Origin: a virus
Virus record (IMG/VR): IMGVR_UViG_3300042485_001041
Span: 1-64,000 of that record
Strand: one strand, 5' to 3'
Length of the DNA stretch: 64,000 nt
Shown: piece after piece, positions 19,110 to 58,854 of the stretch
Layout of the letters: the number at the start of each line of letters is the position of its first letter
Position numbering within the stretch: the stretch's first letter is position 1
Notes under the pieces: model-generated
The model's database searches: none
Told to the model about the DNA's origin: nothing
The model's input: the letters and a program-made list of their open reading frames with translations, nothing else
Program-made: the position numbers and the translations under genes

Positions 19110-19567
19110 TGGAACTAGATCCAGCACTAAAGAAAGGTTTAGACTTACCTAAACCATCCTACGATCAAGCCGTATTGCCGCCCGATATCACGGTACTTAA
19201 CAGTGAGCAGTTGGCTGAGATGTTTACCATACTAACTGGCTGGGCAGATTACATAGCCTCTCAGTTGGTACAGGCTCAGTTGGCTGAGCGTGACTCCTTG
19301 CGTAGAGCAGAGTTTGCTGAGAACAAAGCGTTAGTGTTAAACACTCCCCCACCAAAGGGGCTGACGATGACAATCATCAAAGCAAAGATCGACATCGATC
19401 CAGATATTATGGCTTTGCGTGATAAGTATGAAGCGTGTTACGCTTATCGAAAGATGATGGAAATGATGCTCACTAACCAGGAACGAGATATAACACTGGT
19501 TTCACGAGAGATCACCCGTCGGACATCAGACCAACGAGCATTCCGAAAGGATTATGGGACATTATGA
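19109..19567 (+). CDS. Helical hypothetical protein next to the Cas4-like nuclease
   Basis: 152 residues, one-base overlap with the nuclease stop. Mainly helical with a long amphipathic region (WADYIASQLVQAQLAERDSL) and a helical C-terminus rich in Arg. The pairing suggests a recombination partner, but no motif proves it. Confidence 0.6.
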   Translation: MELDPALKKGLDLPKPSYDQAVLPPDITVLNSEQLAEMFTILTGWADYIASQLVQAQLAERDSLRRAEFAENKALVLNTPPPKGLTMTIIKAKIDIDPDIMALRDKYEACYAYRKMMEMMLTNQERDITLVSREITRRTSDQRAFRKDYGTL

Positions 19568-22399: not shown

Positions 22400-22648
22400 A
22401 TGTTATCGCAGCCCCAATTTCAATCAGGGCAGGCGCAACCGCAGGCACCTGATGCGCCACCTCCGTTGTCGTTGAGCAAAAACACAACAGGTAGTGCAGC
22501 GCAGGCTACTGCATGGAGTAACCGCAGTCTTGGTGGAGGTAAGCCTCTTGCTTACTCAAGTAAGACTCGTGGCACCACCTTTAATTGGGACGATACGCAA
22601 CAAACAAACTTGCCTTCATCCGATAAGGGTGCTGGGCGAAATGAGTAA
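22400..22648 (+). CDS. Gln/Pro/Ser-rich small protein with LSxPQF start
   Basis: 82 residues, low complexity (Gln, Pro, Ser), starting MLSQPQFQSG, which resembles the tag found in many small proteins here. Probably disordered. It overlaps the next gene by 8 bases. The function is unknown. Confidence 0.5.
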   Translation: MLSQPQFQSGQAQPQAPDAPPPLSLSKNTTGSAAQATAWSNRSLGGGKPLAYSSKTRGTTFNWDDTQQTNLPSSDKGAGRNE

Positions 22649-23168
22649 AAAAAGTCCTCGTATAAATTCTGAAACTTTAACTCGACCTACTGGATTTCAC
22701 CCTGCGTTGAGTGCTGTTGAGTTTGCCGCACGCACAAATGCTAAGCCATTGGTAGACGAACATGGCGTAGAGCGTGGTTTAACTATGAACGTGCACACTG
22801 GCGTTACGACCGATGAGAAACCAGCAGTTGGTTACGCAGTTGGTGGAGAGCGTGATGTTCAGGGCAAACGAATTAACACCAAAAAAGTTAGTTCAGGAAG
22901 TAAAGACCCTAAATTAACCGCAAATGATGTTTCTAAGTTCTCAGAAAAGATACGAATGGGAACTAAGGACAAGAATGTAAACATGGGTTCATGGGTAGAC
23001 TCAAGCAAGACAAAGAGTGGTGTTCAACTTGATGCTTCTCGCGTCTATACAGATAAAGAAGAAGCCACAAAGAAGATGGAAGAACGTAAAGAGGACGCTA
23101 TGTACGATGTACAGACCTTTGAAACCATTCGTAACACCAAGAAGAAGCCACGAGAGAAGAATAAATAA
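22641..23168 (+). CDS. Charged hypothetical protein
   Basis: 175 residues from ATG 22641, overlapping the previous stop by 8 bases; the frame is open further upstream but this start fits the junction style. GFHPALSAVEFAARTNAKPL near the start, then Lys/Asp-rich and mostly polar sequence, ending KKKPREKNK. No domain is recognised. Confidence 0.55.
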   Translation: MSKKSPRINSETLTRPTGFHPALSAVEFAARTNAKPLVDEHGVERGLTMNVHTGVTTDEKPAVGYAVGGERDVQGKRINTKKVSSGSKDPKLTANDVSKFSEKIRMGTKDKNVNMGSWVDSSKTKSGVQLDASRVYTDKEEATKKMEERKEDAMYDVQTFETIRNTKKKPREKNK

Positions 23169-23701
23169 TGGCTGGCGGTCCTAACAACCTTTCAGCCTCA
23201 CAGAACTGGCAATCACTCGGTGGTGGCGGATTTAATGGCTATAACAATCAAGGCGGTGCAGGCACTCCTGTAGCCCGTGACACGATGGATAGCCTACGCA
23301 TTGGCGTAGGTCGAGTTCCTTCTGCCGAGTATCCAGATGGTTATCTTGGAACAATTCGTTCACGTCGTGATGACCGTCTGTTAGATTCAATTAAGAATCG
23401 CGTCAATCAAAAATCTTATCAACGTGGTGTACATAAAGGTGAGCGCATTGAGCCATCAATGTACTACTGGCCTGAAGAGGTTAACCCTATGATGGGTATT
23501 CAACGTCAAATGGCAGCAGTTATTGATACTTCATCAGGTGCAACAGTTTACCGTTCATTGCGTAACGCTCCTCAAATCCACCTAACCCCTGCTCCTCACC
23601 TTGTCAATGATGGCAAGGCAAATACAAGAGCAGATGAGCCAGGTCAGATTAATGCCCGTCGTCAAGCAATGCTTGCATACTTGAGACCAGCGTGGAACTA
23701 A
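23168..23701 (+). CDS. Hypothetical protein with NLSASQ start
   Basis: 177 residues beginning MAGGPNNLSASQNW, a variant of the recurrent tag, then a Gly/Asn-rich segment. A second half with RSRRDDRLLDSIKNRVNQ and IHLTPAPHLV is more ordered. It overlaps the preceding stop by one base. The function is unknown. Confidence 0.55.
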   Translation: MAGGPNNLSASQNWQSLGGGGFNGYNNQGGAGTPVARDTMDSLRIGVGRVPSAEYPDGYLGTIRSRRDDRLLDSIKNRVNQKSYQRGVHKGERIEPSMYYWPEEVNPMMGIQRQMAAVIDTSSGATVYRSLRNAPQIHLTPAPHLVNDGKANTRADEPGQINARRQAMLAYLRPAWN

Positions 23702-24870: not shown

Positions 24871-25143
24871 ATGCGAAGCAAACCAAGAAGCCCACTTCTA
24901 GGTGGAAAACGTATGCTTGCAAATGAAATGCCAAAACCAGGTAGCAAGTATTTTCCAACATCAAAGGTAACCCCAGAAGAACATTTATCTCATCCTGAAA
25001 CACGTATTGGATTAGATCCAAATACTGGTAAATCAGTTGTATACAGCGGTGAACTTGGTGGACGCCATGTTGTTGATCCTGTTCCAGTAAGTGGTTCTTT
25101 TTTGGCTCGCAACTTCCATGATCGCAGAAAAAAAGGTAAGTAA
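24871..25143 (+). CDS. Small basic hypothetical protein
   Basis: 90 residues, basic. The middle reads HPETRIGLDPNTGKSVVYSG then GRHVVDPVPVSGSFLARNF, which looks like a small folded unit. The C-terminus KKGK provides the GGTAAG-TAA sequence before the next ATG. Unknown. Confidence 0.5.
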   Translation: MRSKPRSPLLGGKRMLANEMPKPGSKYFPTSKVTPEEHLSHPETRIGLDPNTGKSVVYSGELGGRHVVDPVPVSGSFLARNFHDRRKKGK

Positions 25144-25292
25144 TGTTTGGTAACTTGTCCAGCCCTCAATTTGGCAGTTCAATGCCTAAACCTAAAATGG
25201 GTGCAAGCGCAGGTCCTCTTGGGTCTTCTAATATGCCTAACCAATCAGGTTCTATGGGCAGCAAAATGATGCCTATGAGAGGCGGAATGTAA
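25143..25292 (+). CDS. 49-residue Met/Ser/Gly-rich protein with NLSSPQF start
   Basis: It starts at an ATG sharing one base with the previous TAA. The sequence MFGNLSSPQFGSSMPKPKMG is low complexity and carries the recurrent tag at residues 4-10. The exact fit between flanking genes (2-base gap to the next) supports translation. Unknown function. Confidence 0.5.
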   Translation: MFGNLSSPQFGSSMPKPKMGASAGPLGSSNMPNQSGSMGSKMMPMRGGM

Positions 25293-26167: not shown

Positions 26168-26485
26168 ATGGCACAAAGAGTTGCTAAAACTAATAGGGCA
26201 AAAGCCCCAGACTTTATTGCCAGCAAGATTCCTTTTGAGGCATCAGCGCTATCTGGCTTAGAAGGCTCACGCCACGATACTGGAATGATGCCAGAGAGTG
26301 AAGCATCACGTTACAAGAGCGCAAATCCTTCTTATACAGTTATGTCCTATGGAACCCCTATTGCCTGGCATGGTGATAGCGGTTGGGATATGTCAGCAGC
26401 AAAACATTCAAGAACTACTTCACGCCATCAAGGTATCGTTCGCCGCGCTATCTTCCAAGACGGCCATGATGGAGCACGTCAATAA
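26168..26485 (+). CDS. SYGTPIAWHG-domain protein (paralogue of the gene at 45411-45704)
   Basis: 105 residues. The C-terminal half has YTVMSYGTPIAWHG, then HSRTTSRHQGIVRRAIF. The reverse-strand protein at 45411-45704 carries the same signature (VYSYGTPIAWHG ... YSTTTSKHQGYVRRAI). The shared Trp-His-Gly and Thr-Thr-Ser-x-His-Gln residues suggest a small conserved domain. Its function is not known to me. Confidence 0.65.
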   Translation: MAQRVAKTNRAKAPDFIASKIPFEASALSGLEGSRHDTGMMPESEASRYKSANPSYTVMSYGTPIAWHGDSGWDMSAAKHSRTTSRHQGIVRRAIFQDGHDGARQ

Positions 26486-26658
26486 TGTCTAACCTTTCCT
26501 CTAATCAATTTAATAAGAAATCTTTTAAAAACATGGTTATGGGTGCTCGTCAAATTACAGGGAAAAATAAAAATAAGAAGTTAAAGCGCGACCCTAATCA
26601 ACGGATACCTAATCCATCAAAGGGTATTGGAATTGAGTACGCGAATAACAACGGATAA
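26485..26658 (+). CDS. 57-residue basic protein with NLSSNQF start
   Basis: The ATG shares a base with the preceding TAA. It begins MSNLSSNQFNKKSFKNMVMG, one of the clearest copies of the recurrent tag, followed by a Lys-rich tail. Unknown function. Confidence 0.55.
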   Translation: MSNLSSNQFNKKSFKNMVMGARQITGKNKNKKLKRDPNQRIPNPSKGIGIEYANNNG

Positions 26659-28473: not shown

Positions 28474-28994
28474 GTCAAGATTACGTAGGTCAACACTCTG
28501 CGCCAGATCCTGAATTTGGTGCTCCGATGCACGATGTCACTGCTAATGGTATGTACCCAAAAGATTTTTATGAAAAATCTCATCACTATGTTAGCGGTGC
28601 TGAAACAGGTTCACACGAATCAATGAGCGCAGTTCGTGCTGTTAAAGGTAAACGGCACGCTTATGTAACTGTGTATCGTGCTGTGCCTCACGGAGTAAAA
28701 GGCGCAAAGATTAATGAAGGAGACTGGGTTACTCCCTCAAGAGAGTACGCCAAAGAACATGGTCGCTCTAACTTAAATAGCAAATATAGAATTATTAGTG
28801 TTAAAGCAAAAGCAGGACATCTTTGGAACGATGCTAACTCTATAAACGAATGGGGCTATCATCCATCGGCTCATATAGAGCCTCGTACCCCCGAAGAGAA
28901 TGCAAAAAGACAAGCAGACTTTGCAGCCCTTAACGAACGTTTGCAATCTAGAAAGGCTCATTTACAAGCCTTTGAAGAAGGAGCAGGAAGATGA
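28470..28994 (+). CDS. ADP-ribosyltransferase-like protein
   Basis: 174 residues overlapping the nucleotidyltransferase by 4 bases. The middle follows the phage ART pattern: VTVYRAVPHGV (Arg), GDWVTPSREYAKEHG (Ser/Thr strand), then LWNDANSINEWGYHP (Glu near 129). Such domains transfer ADP-ribose from NAD to proteins and are often carried in virions. The C-terminal 40 residues are a charged helix. Confidence 0.65.
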   Translation: MSQDYVGQHSAPDPEFGAPMHDVTANGMYPKDFYEKSHHYVSGAETGSHESMSAVRAVKGKRHAYVTVYRAVPHGVKGAKINEGDWVTPSREYAKEHGRSNLNSKYRIISVKAKAGHLWNDANSINEWGYHPSAHIEPRTPEENAKRQADFAALNERLQSRKAHLQAFEEGAGR

Positions 28995-29443
28995 GCGCAC
29001 GTAATTTATCTTTGGCACAGCACCTTGCTGCTGGTCAACTACCTATGTTTATGACAGGTAAAGAGATACAGACTCATTTACATCCCTTTCATGGTGATCG
29101 TGAAGGGGTGGCCACAGACAAGCCAGATCCAGAAGAATGGGGTGGCAAAGAACTTCGACCAGAAACTAATAAAGAAGTGTGGGAAAGAAAGTACGACGAG
29201 TCAGTAACTAATGCTGACATGGGTGGCGCAGAGCACGGTGATAAGTACAGTAACTTGGCACAGGATATAGCCCATGAAGGTTTTAAATCCCCCCGTATTC
29301 CTGTAAACCTAGACAGACAAGAGGTATTGGGTGGTCATCATAGAGTTGCAGTTGGGGCTGAAGAGCACCCTAACCATCTTTTTCCAGTAGTACATTATGA
29401 CAACATACACGAAGCAAGGCATCAATTAAAAGAGCACTATTAA
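28991..29443 (+). CDS. Tagged ParB/sulfiredoxin-like (GHHR) protein
   Basis: 150 residues starting MSARNLSLAQHLAAGQLPMF, the tag plus the MFMT segment seen again at 53413 and 54771. The C-terminal part has SPRIPVNLDRQEVLGGHHRV, the G-H-H-R turn of ParB N-terminal/sulfiredoxin-fold domains. It could be a nuclease or phosphotransfer domain; catalytic activity is not shown. Confidence 0.6.
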   Translation: MSARNLSLAQHLAAGQLPMFMTGKEIQTHLHPFHGDREGVATDKPDPEEWGGKELRPETNKEVWERKYDESVTNADMGGAEHGDKYSNLAQDIAHEGFKSPRIPVNLDRQEVLGGHHRVAVGAEEHPNHLFPVVHYDNIHEARHQLKEHY

Positions 29444-42980: not shown

Positions 42981-42990
42981 GGAGTCCTCT

Positions 42991-46498: not shown

Positions 46499-46570
46499 GA
46501 ATACATCGAGTTATGTATTCACCCCACTAGTAACCAGAGATAGATCGCTGTCTATTTACCAGTTACTAGT
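46499..46570. promoter_or_regulatory. Two adjacent hairpins at the head of the reverse operon
   Basis: GAATACAT/ATGTATTC (46499-46520, 6-nt loop) is followed by ACTAGTAAC (46526-46534) pairing with GTTACTAGT (46562-46570), with a nested ATAGA/TCTAT. The second reuses AGTAAC/GTTACT half-sites. Candidate operator or leader structure. Confidence 0.45.
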
Positions 46571-46774
46571 AGAGAAAACACATAAGCAGATAATTACTAA
46601 TTGAGTTGCCCAGTTCGTTCACTATGCTTCATGCGGATTGGTTACCGATTGCGCTGTTATTAACAGATAGTCCATGTGAACTGGATTCAATCTCCATAAT
46701 TATTTTCCCTAAGCCATATCTGCTATTCACAATTAATTTCTTAATCGTTGGAGTTGTTTACATTTAATGAAGTT

Positions 46775-46895
46775 AATCGCTCGTTATTAGTAGTAATCGC
46801 TAGTTAATAAATAGTGGATTCTATTTATTCATTCATCGCGTAGTAATAAGTTTTCGCAATTAGATTTTCATCTCTTGAATTATTCGCTCGTTATT
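46775..46895. repeat. Iteron-like repeats AWTCGCTMGTTAWT
   Basis: Three 14-base copies: AATCGCTCGTTATT (46775-46788), AATCGCTAGTTAAT (46795-46808) and ATTCGCTCGTTATT (46882-46895), in the same orientation within AT-rich DNA. Spacing between the first two is 20 bases start to start. Resembles initiator-binding iterons, but no experimental or family evidence. Confidence 0.4.
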
Positions 46896-47032
46896 CGTAA
46901 TCGCATTCACTAATAGCATCTAGTAGATAGATCGCTTTCGCCTTAGTTAGTTATTAATCGAGTTCATTGGTACAGAACACAATTAAAAGAATGCGATTCG
47001 TAATCGCAGATTTTCTTAGCCTCTATTTAATT

Positions 47033-47118
47033 AAGTTATTTAGTAACGATCGCCAGTTGAGTACCGCGCCTTAGCGTTGTTAGTTCGGGTCAGTTCACCG
47101 ACCATTACTAAATAACTT
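47033..47118. repeat. 86-nt segment closed by a 14-bp inverted repeat
   Basis: AAGTTATTTAGTAA (47033-47046) is the exact reverse complement of TTACTAAATAACTT (47105-47118). Inside, TCGG/CCGA and CGC/GCG can form small hairpins. No tRNA features. Could be an RNA or origin-associated structure. Confidence 0.45.
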
Positions 47119-47626
47119 TGAGCATTTTTCACTTCTGATTAATAAACCGATCAGTTGCCCCTAGAGGATTCTGAAAAGATCGATCGTTGGTCGCGTGCGC
47201 TATGGGAGAAATGTACCACTCAGCCCGATCAGTTGATAACAGGCTCGATCTATTTACTCCGCGTTGCCGATCTAATTGTTAAGCCGAATGAGCGTGCGTG
47301 GGATTGAGCGTAAATACACCTGAGAGGGCGTAGAAGGGGTCTAAGAGCCGAGTACCCCCAGTTTGAAGGTAATCACCCCAGAGCAGGTGAGATCGTGGCT
47401 CATAGGGCGCGTGTGGAGAGGGGTGTTTATGCGTTAATGTCCGAATTGCCCGATATATGTAAGTCCACGCCGACAATGTGAAAGTTAGATAGTTAGATGC
47501 GCCGATGCGCCAGAGCCAGATGAAATTGCGCCGATGTATTTTTTTTCTCAGTATTAACAATTTAATCACTAAGAGAGAGTAGAGAAGATAAGAAGAAAAC
47601 AATTAAGAGGGAGATGTAATTAATTA

Positions 47627-47764
47627 ATGATTAGTAGAAAAGATTATCCATTAGTTGATCGAGTTGATTCAAACAGCAGATTTAATTTATTGATGTGGTT
47701 AGCGAAGTACCAGATGAATAACCCCGATGTAGTAGAGATAGAGATTGATTCACATAACTATTAA
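47627..47764 (+). CDS. Possible 45-residue protein
   Basis: ATG 47627, 13 bases after AGAGGGAG, to TAA 47762-47764. It reads MISRKDYPLVDRVDSNSRFN then LLMWLAKYQMNNPDVVEIEI, which is protein-like. First forward-strand frame after the divergent region. Spacing to the ribosome site is long, so uncertain. Confidence 0.4.
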   Translation: MISRKDYPLVDRVDSNSRFNLLMWLAKYQMNNPDVVEIEIDSHNY

Positions 47765-48065
47765 TAAATAATAATAAATAATAAATGATCGATGTGATGA
47801 TGTGATCGATGTGAACTCGAATAGCAGGTGGTTAGTACCTGATAACAACTGGGTGGCACACCTGACAGTCTGGTGTTACGCGCACAGCCACGCCACTTGC
47901 CAGAGCAGTAGCCGAAGATCGTGTCACCAAGATTGTCACCAAGTTAGTTAATCAATAACTATTTACGCTCATGTTAACTAGTTCGCACCTGACTAGTAAT
48001 CAGGAGTAATTGTTAACACCGACCCCCACCCCCTACCCCACCCACCCTTAATCGCACGCACGCAA
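47765..48065. other. 301-nt segment with repeats and a C-rich tract
   Basis: No convincing gene. Contains an AAT-type microsatellite (to ~47786), two GATCGATGTGA copies (47787, 47804), hairpin CAGGT/ACCTG (47825-47841), two TGTCACCAAG copies (47922, 47934) and the C-rich tract at 48023-48047. Likely a promoter/regulatory segment for the forward cluster. Confidence 0.4.
48023..48047 (-). other. G-quadruplex-prone tract
   Basis: The reverse strand reads GGGTGGGTGGGGTAGGGGG... with five G-runs of 3-5 separated by 1-2 bases. This fits the G3+N1-7 quadruplex rule. It lies 19 bases before the first start of the forward cluster. Confidence 0.6.
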
Positions 48066-48749
48066 GTGCCGAGCCAGGTGTCAGACACGGTTGACGACTT
48101 TTACGCTGAGGCAGTGCGGATTTTAAGCCATAATCGCCATATGCCCGCTCACAGCGTCTGCCGCACCTGCGGAAAGAAGATTAAGCAAGAAGGCTCCACT
48201 TGGAGTTCTCATTTGGGCGATAAGTGCTGGGGCAAGGGCACCCACAACCCCGTTCACACCGTTATCTCAGAAGGCTTAAAATCGGCCCCAGTATCAGTTC
48301 CTAGTCGTTTGCTTAATGAAACCTTGTTTCGTGGGTTGCCAGGTACTAAGTTGGAGACTCCACTTGGAATGCACTGGTCATCTGTATCGGGGCTTGACCA
48401 CGTTTCTGGTTATTCGGGAGGAATAGGTAGTGGCGCTAGTCTATTTTCTGGCGGAGAAGGTAAAAAGGGCGAGAAGTCAACTATCATTCACGCTAAGGTA
48501 AACAACCGAGCAATCATCAACCCTCGCTCATCAGAGGGTAAGAAGATGGCTGGTCGTCATCAAATTTGGGGCGGAGGAGCCCCTGAGTACGAAGAGACGG
48601 TTCGCCCTGGTGCAAACGTTGAAGTAACTAAGTTAACTCGTGTACGTAACGTTACCGATGCCTCTCATGACGAATCTGGTAAGTACACTCCAGCGGTAAC
48701 AAAGCAACGAGAGATCCGTTACAAGAAACCAAGACAGGTACAAGCATAA
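48066..48749 (+). CDS. ADP-ribosyltransferase-like protein with N-terminal zinc motif
   Basis: 227 residues from GTG 48066 (start uncertain; GTG 48078 and ATG 48141 are alternatives). An N-terminal zinc motif (CRTCGKKI ... CWGKGTH) is followed by an ART-like domain: LFRGLPG (Arg), GMHWSSVSG (Ser), and E-rich YEETVRPGANVEV. The two neighbours (48749, 49602) carry the same layout, so these are tandem paralogues. NAD-dependent ADP-ribosylation is the predicted activity. Confidence 0.55.
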   Translation: MPSQVSDTVDDFYAEAVRILSHNRHMPAHSVCRTCGKKIKQEGSTWSSHLGDKCWGKGTHNPVHTVISEGLKSAPVSVPSRLLNETLFRGLPGTKLETPLGMHWSSVSGLDHVSGYSGGIGSGASLFSGGEGKKGEKSTIIHAKVNNRAIINPRSSEGKKMAGRHQIWGGGAPEYEETVRPGANVEVTKLTRVRNVTDASHDESGKYTPAVTKQREIRYKKPRQVQA

Positions 48750-49171
48750 TGGCCGCTCAAGACAACCTTTCAGAAGCCTTGTTCACCGTGCCTCTGCATC
48801 GTGGGGTAAAGAGCACCTCTACCCTTAGTAACCCTGTAGGAATCCACTGGACAGACGTACCTAAAGTTGCAGAGAAGTTTGCAAGGGCAAAGGTCATGTA
48901 TCCCAATGAACGAGGTTCTGGAAGAGTCATCCATGGCAAAGTTAACGAAAAAGCCATTGTTGATAAAAAGTCTAAAGAAGGTCGCACATTACGTAAACTT
49001 CATGGAATTGAGCCCTACGAGAACGAACATGAGAATACCGTAAGACCAGGAGCCACTGTACTTGTTACAGGGTCTACTCGCATAACCCACACAGTTGATC
49101 CCAAGGGCAAAGAGAAGATAGAACGCCGTAGAGAACGACGTTATAACCCACCACGACAGGTGCGTGCATAA
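48749..49171 (+). CDS. Tagged ADP-ribosyltransferase-like protein
   Basis: 140 residues. Starts MAAQDNLSEALFTVPLHRGV: tag, then ART Arg strand. GIHWTDVPKVAEKFA and HENTVRPGATVLV match the copy at 48066 position by position, while that copy has a zinc motif in place of the tag. Ends in Arg-rich RRERRYNPPRQVRA. One-base overlap with both neighbours. Confidence 0.6.
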   Translation: MAAQDNLSEALFTVPLHRGVKSTSTLSNPVGIHWTDVPKVAEKFARAKVMYPNERGSGRVIHGKVNEKAIVDKKSKEGRTLRKLHGIEPYENEHENTVRPGATVLVTGSTRITHTVDPKGKEKIERRRERRYNPPRQVRA

Positions 49172-49602
49172 TGGCTGCCTCAGACAACCTATCTCCTAAA
49201 CAGTTCAACAGGCCTCTAGTACGCCCTGCTGAGATGGCAGACCCAGATATGCGGCCAGGAGCAAAGAACTACCCTCGTAAGAAATTTAACGTACATGCAG
49301 AGATGGGTAAGTCATGGAAGGCCGTGACACCACCTAATTCCTTTGACATGAAGACAGGTGCTCCGCTACCTGTACAGCCAGGCGCTATCTCTATCGTCAC
49401 ACCTGAAAACGGAGATGCATGGACTAATTGGCCTGAACATACTGACCCAGACAAAATTCGCATGGCTAAGAAGTTAGTTAAGAACAACTTGACTCGTGAA
49501 GCCCAGAAGAGCAGAGACCCAAAGGTTCGTATGCAATCACGTCAAGCCTCTTACAAGGCTAACCAGATTCAATCTGCTATTCAGAATCGTACAAATAAAT
49601 AA
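49171..49602 (+). CDS. Tagged basic protein of unknown function
   Basis: 143 residues beginning MAASDNLSPKQFNRPLVRPA, a textbook copy of the tag. The rest is Pro/Lys-rich with PPNSFDMKTGAPLPVQPGA and a helical, basic C-terminus. It has no ART signature. Possibly nucleic-acid binding. Confidence 0.6.
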   Translation: MAASDNLSPKQFNRPLVRPAEMADPDMRPGAKNYPRKKFNVHAEMGKSWKAVTPPNSFDMKTGAPLPVQPGAISIVTPENGDAWTNWPEHTDPDKIRMAKKLVKNNLTREAQKSRDPKVRMQSRQASYKANQIQSAIQNRTNK

Positions 49603-50081
49603 TGGCTGCCTCAGACCACCTAGGACCTCAGTGGAGTCAACCTGAACTAACTTTTCAAGTACACCGTGGACTTACTCGTAAGCCTCAAAAGGGTAGATGG
49701 CTAGGTATGCACTGGTCAGCAGATCCAGCGGTAGCAAGAAGGTTTGCTGGGCCGTTTGGCCACGTTGTACATGGTGAGGTACCAATGAGTTCTGTTGAGA
49801 CAGATACTGGCACTCTAAGAAGTGAGCGCGTTATTGACGATTCTAAAGTTAAAGAGCCATACAAACAAGAGAAAGAAGTGTCAGTTACGGTTGGCAAGCC
49901 TGTAAAGGTCACTGGCGTAACTGGTCCTGAAGCAGATAAAGAGACAGGTAACTGGAACGGAGTGCGTCGCACTACTCCCAACTCAAATACCGCAACTACG
50001 GCTGAGTGGCAAGAAGCCATGAAGAATAAGCGTCCAGCAAGAAAGCGCACCTATAAAAAGCCAAGAGAGATGACAGCCTAA
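49602..50081 (+). CDS. Tagged ADP-ribosyltransferase-like protein
   Basis: 159 residues. Tag variant MAASDHLGPQWSQPE, then FQVHRGLTRKPQKG (Arg), GMHWSADPAVARRFAG (Ser strand and helix) and VVHGEVPMSS. The third motif Glu is less clear (EKEVSVTVGKPVKV). C-terminus basic. Third member of the tandem ART-like group. Confidence 0.55.
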   Translation: MAASDHLGPQWSQPELTFQVHRGLTRKPQKGRWLGMHWSADPAVARRFAGPFGHVVHGEVPMSSVETDTGTLRSERVIDDSKVKEPYKQEKEVSVTVGKPVKVTGVTGPEADKETGNWNGVRRTTPNSNTATTAEWQEAMKNKRPARKRTYKKPREMTA

Positions 50082-50455
50082 TGGCCGCTGAAGATAACTT
50101 AAGCAATGCCCAGTGGCATCAGTTGGAGATGTACAAAACAGCCAAGGACTTGTATGGGCACAGACTCTCTGATGTAGAGGTGGAACATGACCGTCTTAAA
50201 AACGATGAAGGCATAGACCCTGAAGAACACGATGTAGATGTTAAAGGTTGGGTTATGGATCGTAAATTATCCGAAAGCAAAAGAAGCGGCCTGTACAGCA
50301 ATATCAAAAGTCGTGGAGTTACAGATCCTGTAAGTTTAGGTCAAGGTCGTTGGGGCGTGTATAAACGAGGTGTCGTAAGTGATGGACACCACCGCATTGC
50401 TGCCGCAAACGATATTGACCCTAATATGTTAGTTCCAGTAGAGCATCAGAAATAG
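50081..50455 (+). CDS. Tagged ParB/sulfiredoxin-like (GHHR) protein
   Basis: 124 residues. Starts MAAEDNLSNAQWHQLEMYKT. The second half has SNIKSRGVTDPVSLGQGRWG then VVSDGHHRIAAANDIDPNML, the ParB/Srx G-H-H-R turn. One-base overlap upstream. Confidence 0.6.
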   Translation: MAAEDNLSNAQWHQLEMYKTAKDLYGHRLSDVEVEHDRLKNDEGIDPEEHDVDVKGWVMDRKLSESKRSGLYSNIKSRGVTDPVSLGQGRWGVYKRGVVSDGHHRIAAANDIDPNMLVPVEHQK

Positions 50456-50502
50456 GCCTTACCTCCCCTAACTAATATTTTTTTATTCAGTAAAAGTAAG
50501 GC
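50456..50502 (+). terminator. Possible terminator
   Basis: GCCTTAC (50456-50462) pairs with GTAAGGC (50496-50502) around a loop that contains a T7 run; the structure is large-looped and thus weak. Confidence 0.3.
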
Positions 50503-50522
50503 AGTAGCCTTATCCTTACCAT

Positions 50523-50765
50523 ATGGAAAAAGACCCTAAAGAGTTGTGGGCAGACTCCATGGCTAGACAAGATATGACCCAGATGTGGCATAACCACTCT
50601 CAGTCTAAAGGGGATAAAGAGCATAAAGGCATTCCCGCCTCCACCTGTCCAGCCTGTTTTGAGAACGACCCAGTAACAGTTGAACACTCTTACGAGTCTG
50701 ACCGTGAAGCGGCAAGAGGCCACTTGACTTCCCAACAATTTGATAAGATGTTTGGACACCTATGA
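50523..50765 (+). CDS. Small His/Cys hypothetical protein
   Basis: 80 residues. A zinc-like CPACFENDPVTVEH in the middle; C-terminus HLTSQQFDKMFGHL contains a tag-like LTSQQF. A TATCCT box ends 6 bases before the ATG and no Shine-Dalgarno is seen (leaderless signature). Confidence 0.5.
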   Translation: MEKDPKELWADSMARQDMTQMWHNHSQSKGDKEHKGIPASTCPACFENDPVTVEHSYESDREAARGHLTSQQFDKMFGHL

Positions 50766-50998
50766 GCCAAGAGAACTTAAGCCAAGAGCAATTCAAGGTA
50801 TATGACTTTGAGGCCGCTAAGAATATGAAGAAGAGCACTGGTCGTGCCGTTGCTTGGCAGAAGGACAATGACGAGTATCACCCAGATACCAAGAAGCATG
50901 ATGATGAGGCTCTGGCTATCCACGATGAGCCAGCCAAGCCAGATAACATGGCAGTTAAAGCCGCCAAGTTCATTGGCCTGATGGACCCAATCGGCTAA
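50762..50998 (+). CDS. Tagged small charged protein
   Basis: 78 residues beginning MSQENLSQEQFKVYDFEAAK (tag). The rest is charged and helical (KKHDDEALAIHDEPAKPDNM). Unknown; 4-base overlap upstream. Confidence 0.5.
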   Translation: MSQENLSQEQFKVYDFEAAKNMKKSTGRAVAWQKDNDEYHPDTKKHDDEALAIHDEPAKPDNMAVKAAKFIGLMDPIG

Positions 50999-51421
50999 AT
51001 GGTTGCTTCAGATAACCTATCTCCCAAACAGTTCAACCGTTTGAGCATGGGCGCCCCTATTGTAAAAAATTTAGGTATTGTCGCTCACGATCCTAAAGAA
51101 GACGATACTGAAGAAGGTTTTAATCGTACAGAGGCTATGTACGCTAATAAAGAGCACCATAATCCAGGTGACATGTGGGACATGCCTTCCTCAGAAGAGT
51201 TACATACAACTCAAAGCGTTTTAAACAAATCTACGATTAGACACTTTGTAGATAACCCTAATAACCCTGAAGAGTGGAAAGATGGCGAAGGCTACAACGC
51301 TCCAGAGGTTTACACTCACCAGGGTAAGTTGTGGGTTCACGAAGGCCACCATCGCCTTATCGCCTCTCGTTTAAGGGGAGACTCAAGTACAAAAGTTCAT
51401 CACTGGGATACTGGTCAGTAA
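50999..51421 (+). CDS. Tagged ParB/sulfiredoxin-like (GHHR) protein
   Basis: 140 residues. Starts MVASDNLSPKQFNRLSMGAP; the tag portion SDNLSPKQFNR is identical to that of 49171. The C-terminal part has LWVHEGHHRLIASRLRGD. Mid-section acidic. Starts directly after the previous stop. Confidence 0.58.
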   Translation: MVASDNLSPKQFNRLSMGAPIVKNLGIVAHDPKEDDTEEGFNRTEAMYANKEHHNPGDMWDMPSSEELHTTQSVLNKSTIRHFVDNPNNPEEWKDGEGYNAPEVYTHQGKLWVHEGHHRLIASRLRGDSSTKVHHWDTGQ

Positions 51422-51888
51422 TGGCTGAGTTTCACTCAGAATGGGGCCACGGCTATCAACCAGCCCCACCTACCAATTTAAACCTTAAGCAGTTTGCTCC
51501 ACACATTCGCTACGAAGTTCCACAGGCAGATAAGCCATTTGGCAATGCGGCAACTAACTTTGGCCTACATACTGCTGGCGTAGAACTGACAACCCAGGCA
51601 CCAGACTCAGATAAGCCATCTGAGACCCTTGGACACCTCCATTGGCATGCAACACGAGGTGAGATACTAGATGTCCACGTTGTTCCAGGCGCACGACGTA
51701 AGGGCGTTGCTACAGCGTTACTTGCTGCTGCAAAAGATGTTGCAGCAAAAACAGGTGTGCCAGCGCCAGTTCACTCAAAAGATAGAAGTGACATGGGTGA
51801 TAAGTGGGCAAAATCAGTCGGCGGCGAAATGCCAGAGCGTTTAAAGATCGGTGGAATACAAGATTTTGAGGGTATTCTTAAAAAATAA
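51421..51888 (+). CDS. GNAT-family acetyltransferase
   Basis: 155 residues from ATG 51421 (shares one base with the preceding stop). LDVHVVPGARRKGVATALLA is the acetyl-CoA-binding R/Q-x-x-G-x-A/G signature. A tag-like NLNLKQFAPHIRYEV lies at residues ~19-33. Predicted to acetylate a small molecule or protein. Confidence 0.75.
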   Translation: MAEFHSEWGHGYQPAPPTNLNLKQFAPHIRYEVPQADKPFGNAATNFGLHTAGVELTTQAPDSDKPSETLGHLHWHATRGEILDVHVVPGARRKGVATALLAAAKDVAAKTGVPAPVHSKDRSDMGDKWAKSVGGEMPERLKIGGIQDFEGILKK

Positions 51889-51909
51889 ACGGTAAAACCA
51901 TGTGGTAAT

Positions 51910-52338
51910 GTGCGCGATGTGCCAAGACCTAATACACCAGAAGGTAAAGAGAAGAAGCGCGAAGACCAAAAACGCTATTATCAGCGTAATAAAAGCAGTT
52001 ACATAGCCAAAAACAAGGTAAAAAGGGCTGAAATCAAGGATTTTCTTCGAAAATACAAGGAATTTAAGGGTTGCGGCGACTGTAGCGGCAAATTTCCCTT
52101 CTATATTTTAGATTTTGACCATCGCGACCCCGCTATGAAGCGATTTAGCCCCGCGAAGATGGCACATAACAATAGTTGGACAGCCATGGTTGAAGAAATT
52201 GCCAAGTGTGATGTACTCTGTGCTAATTGTCATCGAGAACGCACATATAAGGATGGCCATCGCTTCTTAGGTCAGAAAAATACTAAGAAAGTCTTTACTG
52301 AGAAAAAGAAACGGAGCACAAGTGAGAACAATTGCTGA
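51910..52338 (+). CDS. HNH endonuclease
   Basis: 142 residues if started at GTG 51910; a leaderless GTG at 51919 is in the same frame, with TAATGT ending 7 bases before it. A basic N-terminus (KKREDQKRYYQRNKSSYIAK) precedes the HNH core: CGDCSGKFPFYILDFDHRDP and CDVLCANCHRERT. Stand-alone HNH nuclease; may be mobile. Confidence 0.72.
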   Translation: MRDVPRPNTPEGKEKKREDQKRYYQRNKSSYIAKNKVKRAEIKDFLRKYKEFKGCGDCSGKFPFYILDFDHRDPAMKRFSPAKMAHNNSWTAMVEEIAKCDVLCANCHRERTYKDGHRFLGQKNTKKVFTEKKKRSTSENNC

Positions 52339-52504
52339 GATAATCGCAAGAATCAAGAGTGAAGATAGAGAGTTGATGGATCGTTTTGCTGGCCAAAGCG
52401 CCGTTGCTTATCTAGAAGGCTTAACTTGTAAGGATGGCTGTCACCCATGTGACAAATGCCAAAGCATATTCGAAGCAATCGAAATAATAGGGAGAATCAA
52501 ATGA
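52322..52504 (+). CDS. Small Cys-rich protein
   Basis: 60 residues from GTG 52322, overlapping the HNH gene by 17 bases. CKDGCHPCDKCQSIFEAI gives four Cys and a possible zinc site. Overlaps the next ATG by 4 bases. Confidence 0.5.
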   Translation: MRTIAEIIARIKSEDRELMDRFAGQSAVAYLEGLTCKDGCHPCDKCQSIFEAIEIIGRIK

Positions 52505-52641
52505 GAGACTTTTCAAAACTACCAATCATCGTTGTAGATGATGACTTCTTTGAGTATGTAGCAGAGATGGGTCATAGCGACGAAATTACTTATGAGGATT
52601 ATGTACTGCTCTGTCAAGAGTGGTTAGCAGATAACACGTGA
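52501..52641 (+). CDS. 46-residue acidic microprotein
   Basis: ATG 52501 (ATGA overlap) after AGGGAG. MRDFSKLPIIVVDDDFFEYV, acidic. Unknown. Confidence 0.5.
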   Translation: MRDFSKLPIIVVDDDFFEYVAEMGHSDEITYEDYVLLCQEWLADNT

Positions 52642-52645
52642 GCCG

Positions 52646-52858
52646 ATGATGTGGTCATGGGTATTAGCGGCAATCGGCGTTACAGGTATCTTTCTTGTAG
52701 GTCGAAAAACTATATGGGGTTGGTTAGTCTTATTCCTTAACGAAGTTCTTTGGACTATCTATGCCGTAACCACAGAGCAGTACGGCTTTATCTTTGCCGC
52801 TATCGCATACGGAATTGTTTATGTTAGATCATTTCTACATTGGAGAAGCACCGAGTGA
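52646..52858 (+). CDS. Small membrane protein
   Basis: 70 residues, three hydrophobic segments with many Trp/Tyr (WSWVLAAIGVTGIFLVGR; LVLFLNEVLWTIYAV; GFIFAAIAYGIVYV). Holin-like in size, but it lies far from the endolysin. Unknown. Confidence 0.55.
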   Translation: MMWSWVLAAIGVTGIFLVGRKTIWGWLVLFLNEVLWTIYAVTTEQYGFIFAAIAYGIVYVRSFLHWRSTE

Positions 52859-53409
52859 GTCATATAGTAGAACTGGCTAAAGAAGAAGTTCGTGCCTGCG
52901 CTGATATCGCCCTAAACCGATGGATGATGAAGTGGGGATCAATAGATCGCCCTAACTACGCAGGCGATAACAAGAAGAACATGGAGCCTGAAATTGCGGC
53001 CAATGTTCGAAGCATCGTTGCTGAGTACGCCGTAGCCAAGTTATACAAGAAGGCATTCACCTTTCCCTTCTATACAAATGAAGAGCACCACTTCCGTAAA
53101 GACATCGCAGATGTTGGCCAGAACATTGAGGTCAAGAGCATCCGCACAAGAGATGAGATACCTGTCTTTCCTAAAGACCTACGAGATGACTGGATACTAG
53201 TTGGGGCCTTCGTGACCGACCGTGATTACTACTCAACCGTCAAGGTATATGGCTGGATGCACATGTCAGATGTACCTGAGAAAGCCAAATGGTCTGTAGA
53301 GCGCGATTACAATGGAAAAATTTTGCGCGAGTGTTGGCGGGTTCCAGAAGAAGCCTTTGAACAGGGTTTGTTAATCCCTACAAATTCAGGAGTTAGCCTT
53401 ACAATTTAA
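52855..53409 (+). CDS. PD-(D/E)XK-like nuclease
   Basis: 184 residues from GTG 52855 (GTGA overlap; GGAG 10 bases upstream). The core reads VRSIVAEYAVAKLYKKAF, then DIADVGQNIEVKSIRTRDEI (D...E-x-K) and DDWILVGAFVTDRDYY. This is the restriction-endonuclease-like pattern. Could be a DNA-degrading or repair enzyme. Confidence 0.6.
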   Translation: MSHIVELAKEEVRACADIALNRWMMKWGSIDRPNYAGDNKKNMEPEIAANVRSIVAEYAVAKLYKKAFTFPFYTNEEHHFRKDIADVGQNIEVKSIRTRDEIPVFPKDLRDDWILVGAFVTDRDYYSTVKVYGWMHMSDVPEKAKWSVERDYNGKILRECWRVPEEAFEQGLLIPTNSGVSLTI

Positions 53410-53412
53410 GGC

Positions 53413-53916
53413 ATGATGAAGCGCCCACCTAAAGATTTAGGTCAAGCATTGAAGGCTGGCTATCAGCCTATGTTTATGACTGGTGGCGAAGTTAAGAAGC
53501 ACTTTGCTCCTTATAAGCAAGATCGTCAATACAAACCAGGCGGAGTCAAAGAAACTGATCAAGAGTTGTGGGATCGCAAGTTAACTGAATCAAAACAAAC
53601 TGGTGAACAAAGATATGGCAAAGATGCTTTTGAAAGAGATAGCCGAGGTGCATGGCGCAGTTTGTCTGGCCCTGATTTAGTTCGTCGAGGAATTGGTGCA
53701 AAGACTTCTCTAGAGTCAGTTGCTCAGAGTAAAGGCATGCCTGGTGGCGCACTTCACTTACAAGATAACAATTTAGGTTCTCCATCTGGAAAACCACAGG
53801 TACTAGGTGGCCATCACCGTGTCGCCTTATCTGCCGCACAATTTCCAGAACATTTATTTCCAATTAAATATGCGCCACACATCGATGCCGCTAGAAGCGA
53901 ACCAGGTTACCGATGA
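53413..53916 (+). CDS. ParB/sulfiredoxin-like (GHHR) protein with MFMT segment
   Basis: 167 residues. Starts KRPPKDLGQALKAGYQPMFM, which aligns with the start of 28991, then PYKQD and a long variable part. GKPQVLGGHHRVALSAAQFP gives the GHHR turn. A TACAAT box ends 7 bases before the ATG. Confidence 0.6.
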   Translation: MMKRPPKDLGQALKAGYQPMFMTGGEVKKHFAPYKQDRQYKPGGVKETDQELWDRKLTESKQTGEQRYGKDAFERDSRGAWRSLSGPDLVRRGIGAKTSLESVAQSKGMPGGALHLQDNNLGSPSGKPQVLGGHHRVALSAAQFPEHLFPIKYAPHIDAARSEPGYR

Positions 53917-54194
53917 AAGAATACTCACTAGGCGGATTTGCGGGAAAGATCTCCGAAAAGGTTAGCCCATACACAAAAACACGAGTAAGTGTCTATCACT
54001 CAGAGCAAGCAGGCTTTGATCACTCAGATGGTCAGCGTTATACAACAATCTGCGAAGATCACGGCAACCTTGTCTCCACTCGCTCACAAGGTGCGGCAAA
54101 GTCTGCAGCGGTTAACCCAATTGACTGGTGTGAAGATTGTCAAGAAAAAGGTAAGACACTAACTGATCACTTCAACGATGGAGCGGCTAAGTAA
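53913..54194 (+). CDS. Small zinc-binding protein
   Basis: 93 residues. RYTTICEDHGNLVSTRSQGA then PIDWCEDCQEK supplies C-x2-H and C-x2-C, a small zinc fold widespread in actinophages. 4-base overlap with the previous gene. Function unknown. Confidence 0.58.
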   Translation: MKEYSLGGFAGKISEKVSPYTKTRVSVYHSEQAGFDHSDGQRYTTICEDHGNLVSTRSQGAAKSAAVNPIDWCEDCQEKGKTLTDHFNDGAAK

Positions 54195-54565
54195 TGAGCG
54201 CATCAGACCACTTAAACCCTAGTCAGTTTAATACTTACTACCATGCTACTGATGAGCACTCGGCAGAGTCTATTAAAAAAACAGGTCTTCGCAACGGCAC
54301 CTACATGACTCCTCATCTAGATGTCGCTAATGATTATGGGACTCACATATTCAAAGTACATGTGCCAAAGAGCCATACCTTTGCAAGCAGTCCAGATCAT
54401 TATTACGAGAGTGACTTCATTCCTAGAGAACACCAAGGCTATGTAACTGAAGAGCACCCTAATTCAGCAGACCGTGTGCACATGGAATCTAGCAAGTTAA
54501 AAATAGAAGGCCCAAAGAGTATGGAAGAGTGGCTCGGTAACAAAAGTGGAAACTGGCGTGCATGA
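54194..54565 (+). CDS. Tagged ADP-ribosyltransferase-like protein
   Basis: 123 residues. Tag MSASDHLNPSQFN, then NTYYHATDEHSAESIKKTGL, TYMTPHLDVANDYGTHIFKV: the Y-H-A-T, and T...A..Y strand-helix of PARP/ART-like folds. A final Glu may be in DFIPREHQGYVTEEH. Different ART subtype from 48066-50081. Confidence 0.55.
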   Translation: MSASDHLNPSQFNTYYHATDEHSAESIKKTGLRNGTYMTPHLDVANDYGTHIFKVHVPKSHTFASSPDHYYESDFIPREHQGYVTEEHPNSADRVHMESSKLKIEGPKSMEEWLGNKSGNWRA

Positions 54566-54774
54566 GCCGTAAAGATAACTTTGAAGCAGCACATGTTGCT
54601 GCTCGTGAGATTGCTCCAGGTGACTACCTTGATGCATCAATGAAGTTACGTGTACATGCAGCCAAAATGATTGGCAATGACTTTGTTGTAGCCCATAAGT
54701 TACGTGGCTCTAAGGCACCTGGCGTATCTATGTATAAGCCAGATGAGAAAGTTAGAGTGTGGCGTAAGAAATGA
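54562..54774 (+). CDS. Small basic protein
   Basis: 70 residues, 4-base overlap. AHVAAREIAPGDYLDASMKL then VVAHKLRGSKAPGVSMYK; a small beta domain is likely. Unknown. Confidence 0.5.
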   Translation: MSRKDNFEAAHVAAREIAPGDYLDASMKLRVHAAKMIGNDFVVAHKLRGSKAPGVSMYKPDEKVRVWRKK

Positions 54775-55097
54775 GCGCTGAAGATAATCTTTCGTATGAA
54801 CAACTTGCTATGTTCATGACTCCTAAAGAAATTAAATCTAAATATGATGTTTCTGAGGGCGAGTACTCCGATGACGAACATGAGCCTAATCAGTTATACG
54901 CACGTAAGCGTCGTGAGGCTAAGAAAAGCGGTTTGTTTAAGAAAATAAGAAAAGAAGGCGTTCAAATTCCAGTTCAACTTTCTTCAGCAGATAAAACTAT
55001 TGCAGATGGACATCACAGAGTTGCATCAGAACGAGACAACCGCTTAATGCCAGTAGAGCATTTAGAGCCTGAAGAGATCTGGTGGCGGAATAGATGA
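54771..55097 (+). CDS. Tagged ParB/sulfiredoxin-like (GHHR) protein
   Basis: 108 residues. MSAEDNLSYEQLAMFMTPKE combines the tag and MFMT segment. IPVQLSSADKTIADGHHRVA gives GHHR, with MPVEHLEPEEI after. 4-base overlaps on both sides. Confidence 0.6.
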   Translation: MSAEDNLSYEQLAMFMTPKEIKSKYDVSEGEYSDDEHEPNQLYARKRREAKKSGLFKKIRKEGVQIPVQLSSADKTIADGHHRVASERDNRLMPVEHLEPEEIWWRNR

Positions 55098-55219
55098 ACA
55101 ACATATCCGCTACGCAATTTGGCGCTCAAATAATGCCAAAAGAAACGTATGTCAATGTAGCGATGCAGATGACGCCTCCATCAGAGGCCTCTAACACAGC
55201 AAGTAGTACAAAAGCATGA
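55094..55219 (+). CDS. 41-residue tagged microprotein
   Basis: ATG 55094 (ATGA overlap) to TGA 55217-55219. MNNISATQFGAQIMPKETYV has a tag-like start and then Met/Ser/Thr. It may be a tag with no effector domain. Unknown. Confidence 0.5.
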   Translation: MNNISATQFGAQIMPKETYVNVAMQMTPPSEASNTASSTKA

Positions 55220-56466: not shown

Positions 56467-57015
56467 ATGACAACTATTGTAGGAGTGCAATATAAGGACC
56501 GCTGTGTTCTGGCGGCCGATAACCAGGTAACTGGTGACGGCGGTCGTAGATACAACCATCCAGAGATGAAGAAGATCTCTCAACGTGGTGCGTTCTTAAT
56601 CGCAGGTAGTGGTGAAGTAATGCCTTGCGATGTTGTCCAGCATATGTGGGTTCCGCCAAAACTTACGGCAAAAGATGGCGAAGACATTTACCACTTCATG
56701 ATTACCAAAGCAATGCCTTCTCTCAGAAAATGCTTAACTGATAACGGTTATGACTTCAATGAGGGTAAGGGAGATGGAAAAGCGGAAGAAAACCGCTTTA
56801 GTTTCATCCTTGCTGTTGGTGGAGAACTATTTGATGTAGCCGATGATCTATCAGTCATTCGGTCAGGAGATGGGATCTACGGAGTAGGTTCTGGGTCTTC
56901 TTATGCAGTTGGTGCGTTACACGCTGGAGCAAAGCCCTCTGAGGCTATTGAGATTGCCTCAAGGCTAGATGTCAATACTTCTGGGCCAATTCAGGTAGTG
57001 GAGCAACTTAAGTAA
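56467..57015 (+). CDS. HslV/proteasome-beta-like Ntn hydrolase
   Basis: 182 residues. Starts MTTIVGVQYKDRCVLAADNQ; the Thr after Met is the expected N-terminal nucleophile. KKISQRGAFLIAGSG and GIYGVGSGSSYAVGALHAG and DVNTSGPIQVV match HslV/20S beta-subunit strands. Without an ATPase partner nearby its role is open: prohead protease, or a peptidase. A TATCCT box ends 7 bases before the ATG. Confidence 0.75.
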   Translation: MTTIVGVQYKDRCVLAADNQVTGDGGRRYNHPEMKKISQRGAFLIAGSGEVMPCDVVQHMWVPPKLTAKDGEDIYHFMITKAMPSLRKCLTDNGYDFNEGKGDGKAEENRFSFILAVGGELFDVADDLSVIRSGDGIYGVGSGSSYAVGALHAGAKPSEAIEIASRLDVNTSGPIQVVEQLK

Positions 57016-57959: not shown

Positions 57960-58121
57960 TCAATCATTTGTTTTCTCCAATTTATGCTTGTGCTCACAAT
58001 ATCGTGCCAGACTTGCAACTACAAATATCTTACGGCAGTATGAGCAAGTAAACCTTTTTAGGTCATCCACTCCACCATTATGTCCGTACACCGAGAGATA
58101 AAAGGGGCAAAATAGAGACAT
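57960..58121 (-). CDS. Small C2H2-like zinc finger protein
   Basis: 53 residues from ATG 58121 (start uncertain; GTG 58070 is possible). CSYCRKIFVVASLARYCEHK gives C-x2-C...H-x-H spacing close to a C2H2 finger. Divergent from the gene starting at 58120. Unknown. Confidence 0.4.
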   Translation of the reverse strand: MSLFCPFYLSVYGHNGGVDDLKRFTCSYCRKIFVVASLARYCEHKHKLEKTND

Positions 58122-58284
58122 GTTATCTGAGCCACAATTTAAGGAAAAGGCTAGTATCGAACTAAACGGTGCGATGCCTATGGACTCTAAGTTTGATGGC
58201 CCTTCATCTCCTAAAGCAAACAAACAAGATGGAGTGATGGTAGCGAATAAAGACCTGATGCTTGCTAAGCCAGGGTTCTTTTAA
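58120..58284 (+). CDS. 54-residue protein with LSEPQF start
   Basis: ATG 58120 with AAAGGGG 12 bases upstream; ends TAA 58282-58284, which shares a base with the next ATG. MLSEPQFKEKASIELNGAMP resembles the tag without the leading Asn. Unknown. Confidence 0.5.
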   Translation: MLSEPQFKEKASIELNGAMPMDSKFDGPSSPKANKQDGVMVANKDLMLAKPGFF

Positions 58285-58484
58285 TGACTAACATCGTCGA
58301 TGCTAGAGAGCCAATAACTCTTTCAGATCGATGCGATACCTGCGGTGCTGGTGCGATGGTTCGTGCAACGATGTTAACTGGTGAGTTGTATTTTTGTGGG
58401 CACCATGCTCGCAAACTTGGAACTAGTTTAGTTTTACAGGCTGTTGACGTGTATGACCCAGAAGGAGCGTTTAACTTTGGATAG
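58284..58484 (+). CDS. DUF7455-like zinc protein
   Basis: 66 residues. LSDRCDTCGAGAMVRATMLT and GELYFCGHHARKL match the small actinobacterial family with CxxC and C-x-H-H. Likely a zinc-binding regulatory or structural protein. Overlaps the next gene by 8 bases. Confidence 0.65.
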   Translation: MTNIVDAREPITLSDRCDTCGAGAMVRATMLTGELYFCGHHARKLGTSLVLQAVDVYDPEGAFNFG

Positions 58485-58854
58485 ATACGAAACTGGTAAA
58501 GGACTGATGGGTGGGCCTGGTGGGACTTACGGTCGATACTCTGTAGGCCCTGCTGTATCAGCGGAAGGAAAAAGAATGCGCAATTTATCAACTCAGTTTG
58601 ATACTGCTGAAGATATTGAAGAGAGACAACGGAAACGCTTTGGCCGTAGACGTGAGTCAGGTTATACTGGCGCAGGATTCTGGTTCTTTAATTATCCAAA
58701 TATGATTGGTTCAGTTGGTTCAGGAACAGACCCGCGTGATACTGGAAGAGGCCAAGACCAAACAGTGAGCGGCAACGGTGATGTTGCTTCAGCAACTGAT
58801 GGAACTGGAATGGGCGGCACTGCTGCAGGTTTTGTTGGAGGATTAGGTTCATGA
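58477..58854 (+). CDS. Gly-rich protein with internal NLSTQF
   Basis: 125 residues from TTG 58477 (AAGGAG 9 bases upstream). An Arg-rich centre (EERQRKRFGRRRESGYTGAG) and a long Gly/Ser C-terminus. MRNLSTQFDTAEDIEE near 35-50 contains the tag core. Possibly a virion protein. Confidence 0.5.
   Translation: MDRYETGKGLMGGPGGTYGRYSVGPAVSAEGKRMRNLSTQFDTAEDIEERQRKRFGRRRESGYTGAGFWFFNYPNMIGSVGSGTDPRDTGRGQDQTVSGNGDVASATDGTGMGGTAAGFVGGLGS

Follow-up and report, generated by a model that had tools for sequence, protein, structure and literature searches.

Encapsulin cargo-loading peptides are short terminal peptides that direct cargo into a shell of the HK97 fold. Among phages, the diverse internal proteins of T4 share only a conserved capsid-targeting sequence (CTS) (PMC3012670), the first 30 residues of P1 DarB suffice to carry a reporter into the head (PMC9024508), and phage proteins believed to be injected early repeatedly contain ADP-ribosyltransferase (ART) and ParB domains (PMC5512222). 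Here we describe a short peptide tag shared by many small proteins of the IMG/VR virus record IMGVR_UViG_3300042485_001041, which differ in what follows it. The window analysed comprises bases 1-64,000 of the 81,218-base record, the remainder of which was also read to its end. No paper describing such a shared tag was found in the open-access literature.

The tag resembles the T4 CTS in being one short N-terminal signal on diverse, fast-changing proteins that include an ART, and it is, like the CTS, a short terminal sequence common to otherwise unrelated proteins. It is set apart from the CTS by dozens of candidate cargo families, by copies at the C-terminus and by the use, in a sister clade, of another label interchangeable with the first, and the genes profiled gave no sign of a maturation protease or of cleavage. 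With the P1 Dar system it has in common an N-terminal stretch as the putative signal, and ParB-like and antirestriction cargo, but P1 has a few large cargo proteins, whereas the tag described here, about 8-12 residues long, is borne by many small proteins of a single domain. ART and ParB-type domains are also found in polyvalent proteins, which occur in phages and conjugative elements, but there a single chain joins them; the small proteins described here stay separate under a common label, and the tagged proteins of the window (41-159 residues) hold at most one recognisable domain each, not the two or more per polypeptide that define polyvalent proteins. Encapsulin cargo-loading peptides are likewise short and terminal.

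The tag has the approximate form [DE][NH]L[SGN]x(0-2)[QA][FW], ending in Q or A followed by an aromatic residue, and usually follows M-[AS]-[AS]-x among the first 12 residues. It is clear at the start of 12 small proteins of the record, is shortened on two more and is C-terminal on one. The tagged and neighbouring genes are as follows.

22400..22648, plus strand: short tag MLSQPQF; relatives have MSDSLSSSQF and MSSLSSSQF
23168..23701, plus strand: conserved protein with the degenerate N-terminal copy NNLSASQNW
25143..25292, plus strand: small protein, tag GNLSSPQF
26485..26658, plus strand: small basic protein, tag SNLSSNQF
28991..29443, plus strand: GHHR protein with the degenerate copy RNLSLAQHL
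48141..48749, plus strand: opens the cluster; ART-like (48213-48746 can be aligned to the ART family), with a cysteine-rich N-terminus in place of the tag; the start is taken, from the sequence, as the ATG behind a promoter-like element
48749..49171, plus strand: ART-like protein (alignment, structure model), tag DNLSEALF
49171..49602, plus strand: family-less protein, tag DNLSPKQF
49602..50081, plus strand: ART-like protein (alignment with the ART family), tag DHLGPQW, a form with short spacing
50081..50455, plus strand: ParB/sulfiredoxin-like GHHR protein (weak PHROG ParB match, E 0.0027), tag DNLSNAQW
50523..50765, plus strand: small protein whose C-terminus carries the motif (GHLTSQQFDKMFGHL)
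50762..50998, plus strand: small protein, tag ENLSQEQF
50999..51421, plus strand: GHHR protein (PHROG ParB-like, E 0.036), tag DNLSPKQF
51421..51888, plus strand: GNAT acetyltransferase (Pfam PF00583, 28.1 bits, cut-off 20.7), NLNLKQF at residues 19-25 behind MAEFHSEWGHG
54194..54565, plus strand: tag DHLNPSQF, then YYHAT; a second ART-like type judged by eye (9 relatives), which matched no Pfam family
54562..54774, plus strand: small protein starting MSRKDNFEAAH; relatives start MSRSAEFE or MSRASEFE, near the second tag type
54771..55097, plus strand: ParB/sulfiredoxin-like GHHR protein (alignment, structure model), tag DNLSYEQL
55094..55219, plus strand: 41-residue protein, tag NISATQF, with a tail (YVNVAMQMTPPSEASNTASSTKA) kept in relatives
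58120..58284, plus strand: 54-residue protein ending KPGFF, short tag MLSEPQF; relatives have MNQNLSMGQF
58453..58854, plus strand: Gly/Tyr-rich conserved protein with internal NLSTQF and a possible internal start at 58576

The ten peptides that the initial annotation had quoted for 48749-55219 were all found in the sequence. Its outlying sites proved uneven: those at 25143 and 26485 are full matches, those at 22400 and 58120 are shortened forms with better matches in their relatives, and those at 23168 and 28991 are degenerate, the Streptomyces phage homologs of the 23168 protein being without the degenerate copy. A further copy, placed inside a gene at 58477, is either internal to the 58453-58854 protein or lies behind an in-frame ATG at 58576 with AAGGA upstream. 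The C-terminal copy in 50523-50765 had been overlooked.

That the peptide is a label is shown most strongly by relatives in which the same kinds of protein are carried under another one. In G008, a relative with a coat protein 83% identical, genes of the same kinds start MPANHADFHG, MGANTADFHA, MTRSNADFRG, MGANNADFRN, MGASNAEFQQ and the like, and this second motif (NxADF) occurs on 7 of 66 genes against a shuffled mean of 0.08. The motif is looser in G005, where two of three strict matches are real and the third is the portal. A scan for ATG-GANxADF returned 16 stretches, several with two to seven such genes on ART-, GNAT- and ParB-like proteins, and some also held variants of the first tag such as ENIGQQF. 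In 4 of 13 second-motif records searched, the coat protein is 80-84% identical to that of the window, marking a sister clade. When the tags were removed, 21 of 31 second-motif proteins had a homolog among 207 first-tag proteins; several of the ten unmatched ones are clearly untagged (for example, the portal). The best pair, MGANNADFHEG.. of L264 and MDIGKQFASV.. of L256, displays 70% identity over 171 residues (E 5e-95) behind unrelated starts. On sequence grounds the peptide is thus an exchangeable label, and not a domain, a DNA repeat or a relic. The motif also occurs at the C-terminus of two G001 proteins and one G019 protein, while G006 and G007, in which no strict tag opens a protein, hold a few small proteins with endings like HGALNSTQFK. 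A terminal, exposed motif usable at either end would fit docking better than a secretion or translation signal.

The label is concentrated at protein ends far beyond expectation. Genes were called with a purpose-written script rather than a standard gene caller, and the strict tag lay within the first 20 residues of 8 of the 133 called genes of the record, compared with a mean of 0.064 and a maximum of two in 2000 sets of shuffled N-termini; the count is an undercount, as the strict form leaves out the 48749, 49602 and 54771 proteins. With a matrix built from 64 distinct tags, the 12 top windows of the record all fell in the tagged proteins described here, a partly circular result as the record's own tags went into the matrix. 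The initial annotation had staked its proposal on enrichment of the motif at the N-termini of relatives, and this is what was seen: in eight tag-rich relatives, 39 of 812 called genes carry a motif starting within the first 13 residues, against a shuffled mean of 0.41 and a maximum of three in 1000. The focal record is designated G000, G001 and G012 were picked through the coat protein, and G015, G016, G018, G019 and G020 were picked through the tag scan, so the tag counts in these last five are not independent. Eleven later copies occur in the tag-rich records, six starting at residues 17-19, four towards the C-terminus (three almost at the very end and one stopping six residues short of it) and one truly internal. 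Nine other records hold 5 motifs within the first 13 residues and 16 later. At 24 loci found through the 48749 protein, 66 motifs stand at protein starts and one is internal, the reversed motif giving 4 and 2, although these counts are redundant, many of the loci being near-identical strains.

Wider scans gave the same picture. The pattern ATG-MSNLSxxQF was found in 58 IMG/VR stretches, of which 44 have at least two N-terminal tags each (178 tags in total), while 84,980 bacterial and archaeal genomes scanned in the same way gave 59 stretches in scattered taxa, none with two tags. A start-free scan for DNLSxKQF returned 23 stretches, and in nine of them a short frame opens with an ATG four codons ahead of the motif; the reversed pattern returned six, none with an ATG so placed. 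The enrichment has its bounds. With a loose motif there was none in the whole Streptomyces phage Alone3 (6 N-terminal forward, 10 reversed) or in a 42-kb part of the Streptomyces phage BRock (8 forward, 6 reversed), and phages DSL-LC01 and ct2KA10 each hold a single chance-looking match. A tblastn search of 50,697 phage records gave no match for the 54194 protein, the 28991 protein or a tagged ART of L161. A 223-residue L189 protein with NLAESQF near its start, whose homologs in 145 phage records have a different start, was not counted, its tag being indistinguishable from an ordinary first helix.

The peptide, and not its DNA, is what is kept. Within the record, tags of the same residues are written in different codons, and a DNA-level explanation was rejected on this ground. 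Across 230 homologous pairs in which both partners match the motif, the tag core displays a synonymous divergence (pS) of 0.66 and a non-synonymous divergence (pN) of 0.039, a test that conditions on the motif and thus overstates conservation. Across 433 pairs with one partner matching, pS was 0.685 and pN 0.170, with length variants scored as mismatches: 214 of the 433 partners fall outside the strict form, many of them being tag variants such as MLNQKQF and NLGRQW.

What follows the tag is diverse, as had been claimed: ARTs, GNATs, ParB/sulfiredoxin-like proteins and families of no known type. With the tag cut off, 215 distinct tagged sequences fall into 41 clusters, which include several variants of the ART type and a few matches by chance, such as 17381. 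Scored with our own profiles, the 207 first-tag proteins comprise 51 ARTs of the 48749 type, 5 of the 54194 type, 40 GHHR proteins, 22 GNATs and 89 others, of which at least 24 begin YHGT or FHGS and resemble a further ART type. The 48749 ART family keeps Arg-Gly and Glu-x-Glu, with R18, E93 and E95 invariant in 29 of 29 aligned sequences. In a structural second look, the 48749 model (pLDDT, the model's own confidence score, 86.8; tag block 57) matched ADP-ribosylating toxins at all of ranks 1-18, aligned from about residue 10-14 with Z of 7.0 to 4.9, moderate values below 8; Foldseek alone gave nothing at E 0.001 or better. The modelled structure places the family in the ART fold. Its members also share a C-terminal tail, RxRTYxPPRxMxA. 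For the 54771 model (pLDDT 84.9, tag block 53), ranks 1-20 of the second look were ParB, Noc, KorB or sulfiredoxin, at Z of 6.5 to 4.5 or better, with a Foldseek best of only E 0.13; G80, H81, H82 and R83 are nearly invariant, and the model assigns the family a ParB-N/sulfiredoxin fold with a GHHR motif. A low-confidence tag on a well-modelled domain is as would be expected of a free peptide that needs a partner. As in polyvalent proteins, a ParB-type domain also occurs at 28470-28994, where the match is to the C-terminal portion of PHROG 2579, 'ParB C-terminal domain' (E 3e-36).

The initial annotation had read the shared start as a sorting signal that loads effectors into the virion or targets them to a phage structure. 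The first element, a shared short sorting signal, is strongly supported by the N-terminal enrichment, the many families, the codon divergence and the label swap, and the tag is very probably real and functional; virion loading is a plausible reading. By analogy with T4 and P1, we propose that the peptide is an exchangeable short linear motif for docking, by which a varying set of small proteins would reach a shared destination, most likely the growing virion, where the label would bind a head or other virion protein during assembly. The labelled enzymes (ARTs, GNATs, ParB/sulfiredoxin-fold proteins and others) would be enclosed, enter the next host with the DNA and act before phage genes are expressed, and the sister clade would use NxADF for the same job. 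Virion loading is the best explanation because the enzyme types match those that other phages package and inject, and because the genes have the same orientation as the lysis and head genes; we put its prospects slightly above even. From 48 kb to the record end, the plus strand carries 52 of 54 called genes, among them those for a CHAP/peptidoglycan-binding lysin, terminase, portal, scaffold and coat; one of the two minus-strand exceptions, at 48123, is probably a false call. ARTs have been reported in freshwater phages and read as weapons against grazers (PMC6802176); the presence of the label on many other enzyme types would fit action inside a bacterial host better.

Several observations weigh against virion loading. 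No N-terminal enrichment was seen in 80 stretches around the coat genes of relatives (3 N-terminal, 15 internal), indicating that the core head proteins themselves are untagged. G002, with a coat protein 93% identical, lacks a strict tag in 77 kb, most of the cluster lying beyond its end. No prohead protease was recognised between the terminase and coat genes, part of which were profiled here, or among the annotated products of Alone3 in that interval, and nothing therefore suggests cleavage in the manner of T4. Without conditioning on the motif, the pN/pS of the tag core (0.248) is only slightly under that of the next 50 codons (0.314), although far under that of the tag's own two spacer codons (0.719). 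Scaffold mimicry, in which the tag would copy the scaffold's conserved C-terminal motif [ND]MSxA[DE]Y, similar to it by eye, was not supported, a tag matrix ranking the motif 1210 of 23782 windows in G000 and at 0.23%-22% in seven other records.

The alternative that survives best is that the label docks proteins on a structure of the infected cell. This could be the host membrane or nucleoid, a replication compartment of the phage or one of its hub proteins, and newly made enzymes would act on the host there. The tagged enzymes are indeed ones that would act in the host, and the cluster's own promoter-like element was not found before head genes in our scan, so that late timing is not shown. 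We nevertheless consider it less likely, as the tag is also borne by tiny enzyme-free proteins of 41-58 residues conserved alongside the effectors. In one clade a protein of this kind apparently switches tags as well: L267 encodes a protein resembling the 58120 protein but bearing the second tag (MGANNADF). The bacterial-genome matches, moreover, look like scatter, such that any receptor of the host would need to be dedicated to phage proteins.

The promoter-like element bears on this timing. It consists of AGGCAGTAGCC behind CCAGGT..ACGGTTGA..TTTT or TACCTCCCCTAA..TTTTT and precedes the first genes of effector clusters, with 17 exact sites less than 200 bp from a gene in 12 records, frequently two per record. 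As it marks the cluster and is absent before head genes in the scan, late expression is neither proved nor excluded; eight-base words in 242 intergenic regions yielded nothing usable beyond it. Two copies lie at the cluster.

48081..48120, plus strand: degenerate copy of the element, ahead of the cluster (score 18.5, the second-highest of the record)
50499..50509, plus strand: promoter-like element AGGCAGTAGCC, 24 bp before 50523

It is improbable that the label destines proteins to be processed or turned over, a task that might fall, for example, to the proteasome-like Ntn hydrolase encoded at 56467-57015 just downstream of the cluster. This protein matches the proteasome family PF00227 (23.8 bits, cut-off 22.4), and its gene is present in six of six tag-rich and none of four tag-poor records compared, but neighbouring genes show nearly the same pattern, and it was not found in the tag-bearing G005, G008, G033 and G036, records that are possibly fragments. 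A search for a receptor by gene presence across these six and four records returned many genes, mostly of one region, and was uninformative; the hydrolase gene stood out in it. In the hydrolase, Thr adjoins the start Met, HslV and BPH structures are matched by sequence, and relatives occur in the freshwater phage DSL-LC01 and in ct2KA10.

Less credible still is the view that the shared start was left over from gene duplication or serves as a handle for recombination, with no function as a peptide. Several of the ARTs, GNATs and GHHR proteins are paralogs, and label swaps occur at the joint between tag and domain. The codons of the record's tags differ, however, and synonymous divergence in the tag is high (0.66-0.69) while the amino acids are kept; descent, furthermore, leaves the 41 clusters, the C-terminal copies and the replacement label unexplained. 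Chance likeness of short N-termini, for which the shortness and looseness of the motif and the 14 of 58 viral stretches holding at most one tag (unrelated chance matches) might speak, is refuted by the shuffles, the reversed motifs and the bacterial control, and merits practically no credence.

The proteins of the record are related to annotated proteins of Streptomyces phage Alone3 (terminase 53%, portal 55%, scaffold 35% and coat 62% identity), and both carry a WhiB-like gene, suggesting an actinobacterial host. A member of the same group, BRock, is listed as a myovirus whose genome measures 112 kb (PMC7453282), and the 81-kb record is therefore probably incomplete. A Phage integrase family protein (PF00589) is encoded at 34912-36189 on the minus strand, from which the phage is possibly temperate; its Streptomyces relative BRock is described as virulent. 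Other features include a pair of genes for a MoxR-like AAA ATPase and a VWA-domain protein (41055-43860, minus strand), a subtilase (PF00082) with a signal-like N-terminus within the replication gene block (19564-20454), and a 996-residue secreted-looking protein with PA14 and fn3 domains and long Pro-rich and Ala/Glu-rich repeats (59103-62093). Immediately before the effector cluster, about 1.6 kb with almost no convincing gene (46507-48140) separates divergent gene blocks.

A broader possibility, which we advance tentatively and rate somewhat short of even, is a modular cargo code in which two or more interchangeable terminal labels (NLSxxQF-type and NxADF-type) each have their own receptor in the assembling virion. 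Captured genes would become injected cargo through about ten codons, the set would be reshuffled among close relatives, and clades would switch labels wholesale. If the label does load virions, dozens of family-less genes, in phages whose hosts are largely uncultured, could be called as injected effectors from their first ten residues; the finding of phage-delivered cargo would become a sequence search, its fast turnover would be explained and a compact loading tag would be gained. Even with another destination, a swappable terminal label across many effector families of one virus group is unusual and testable.

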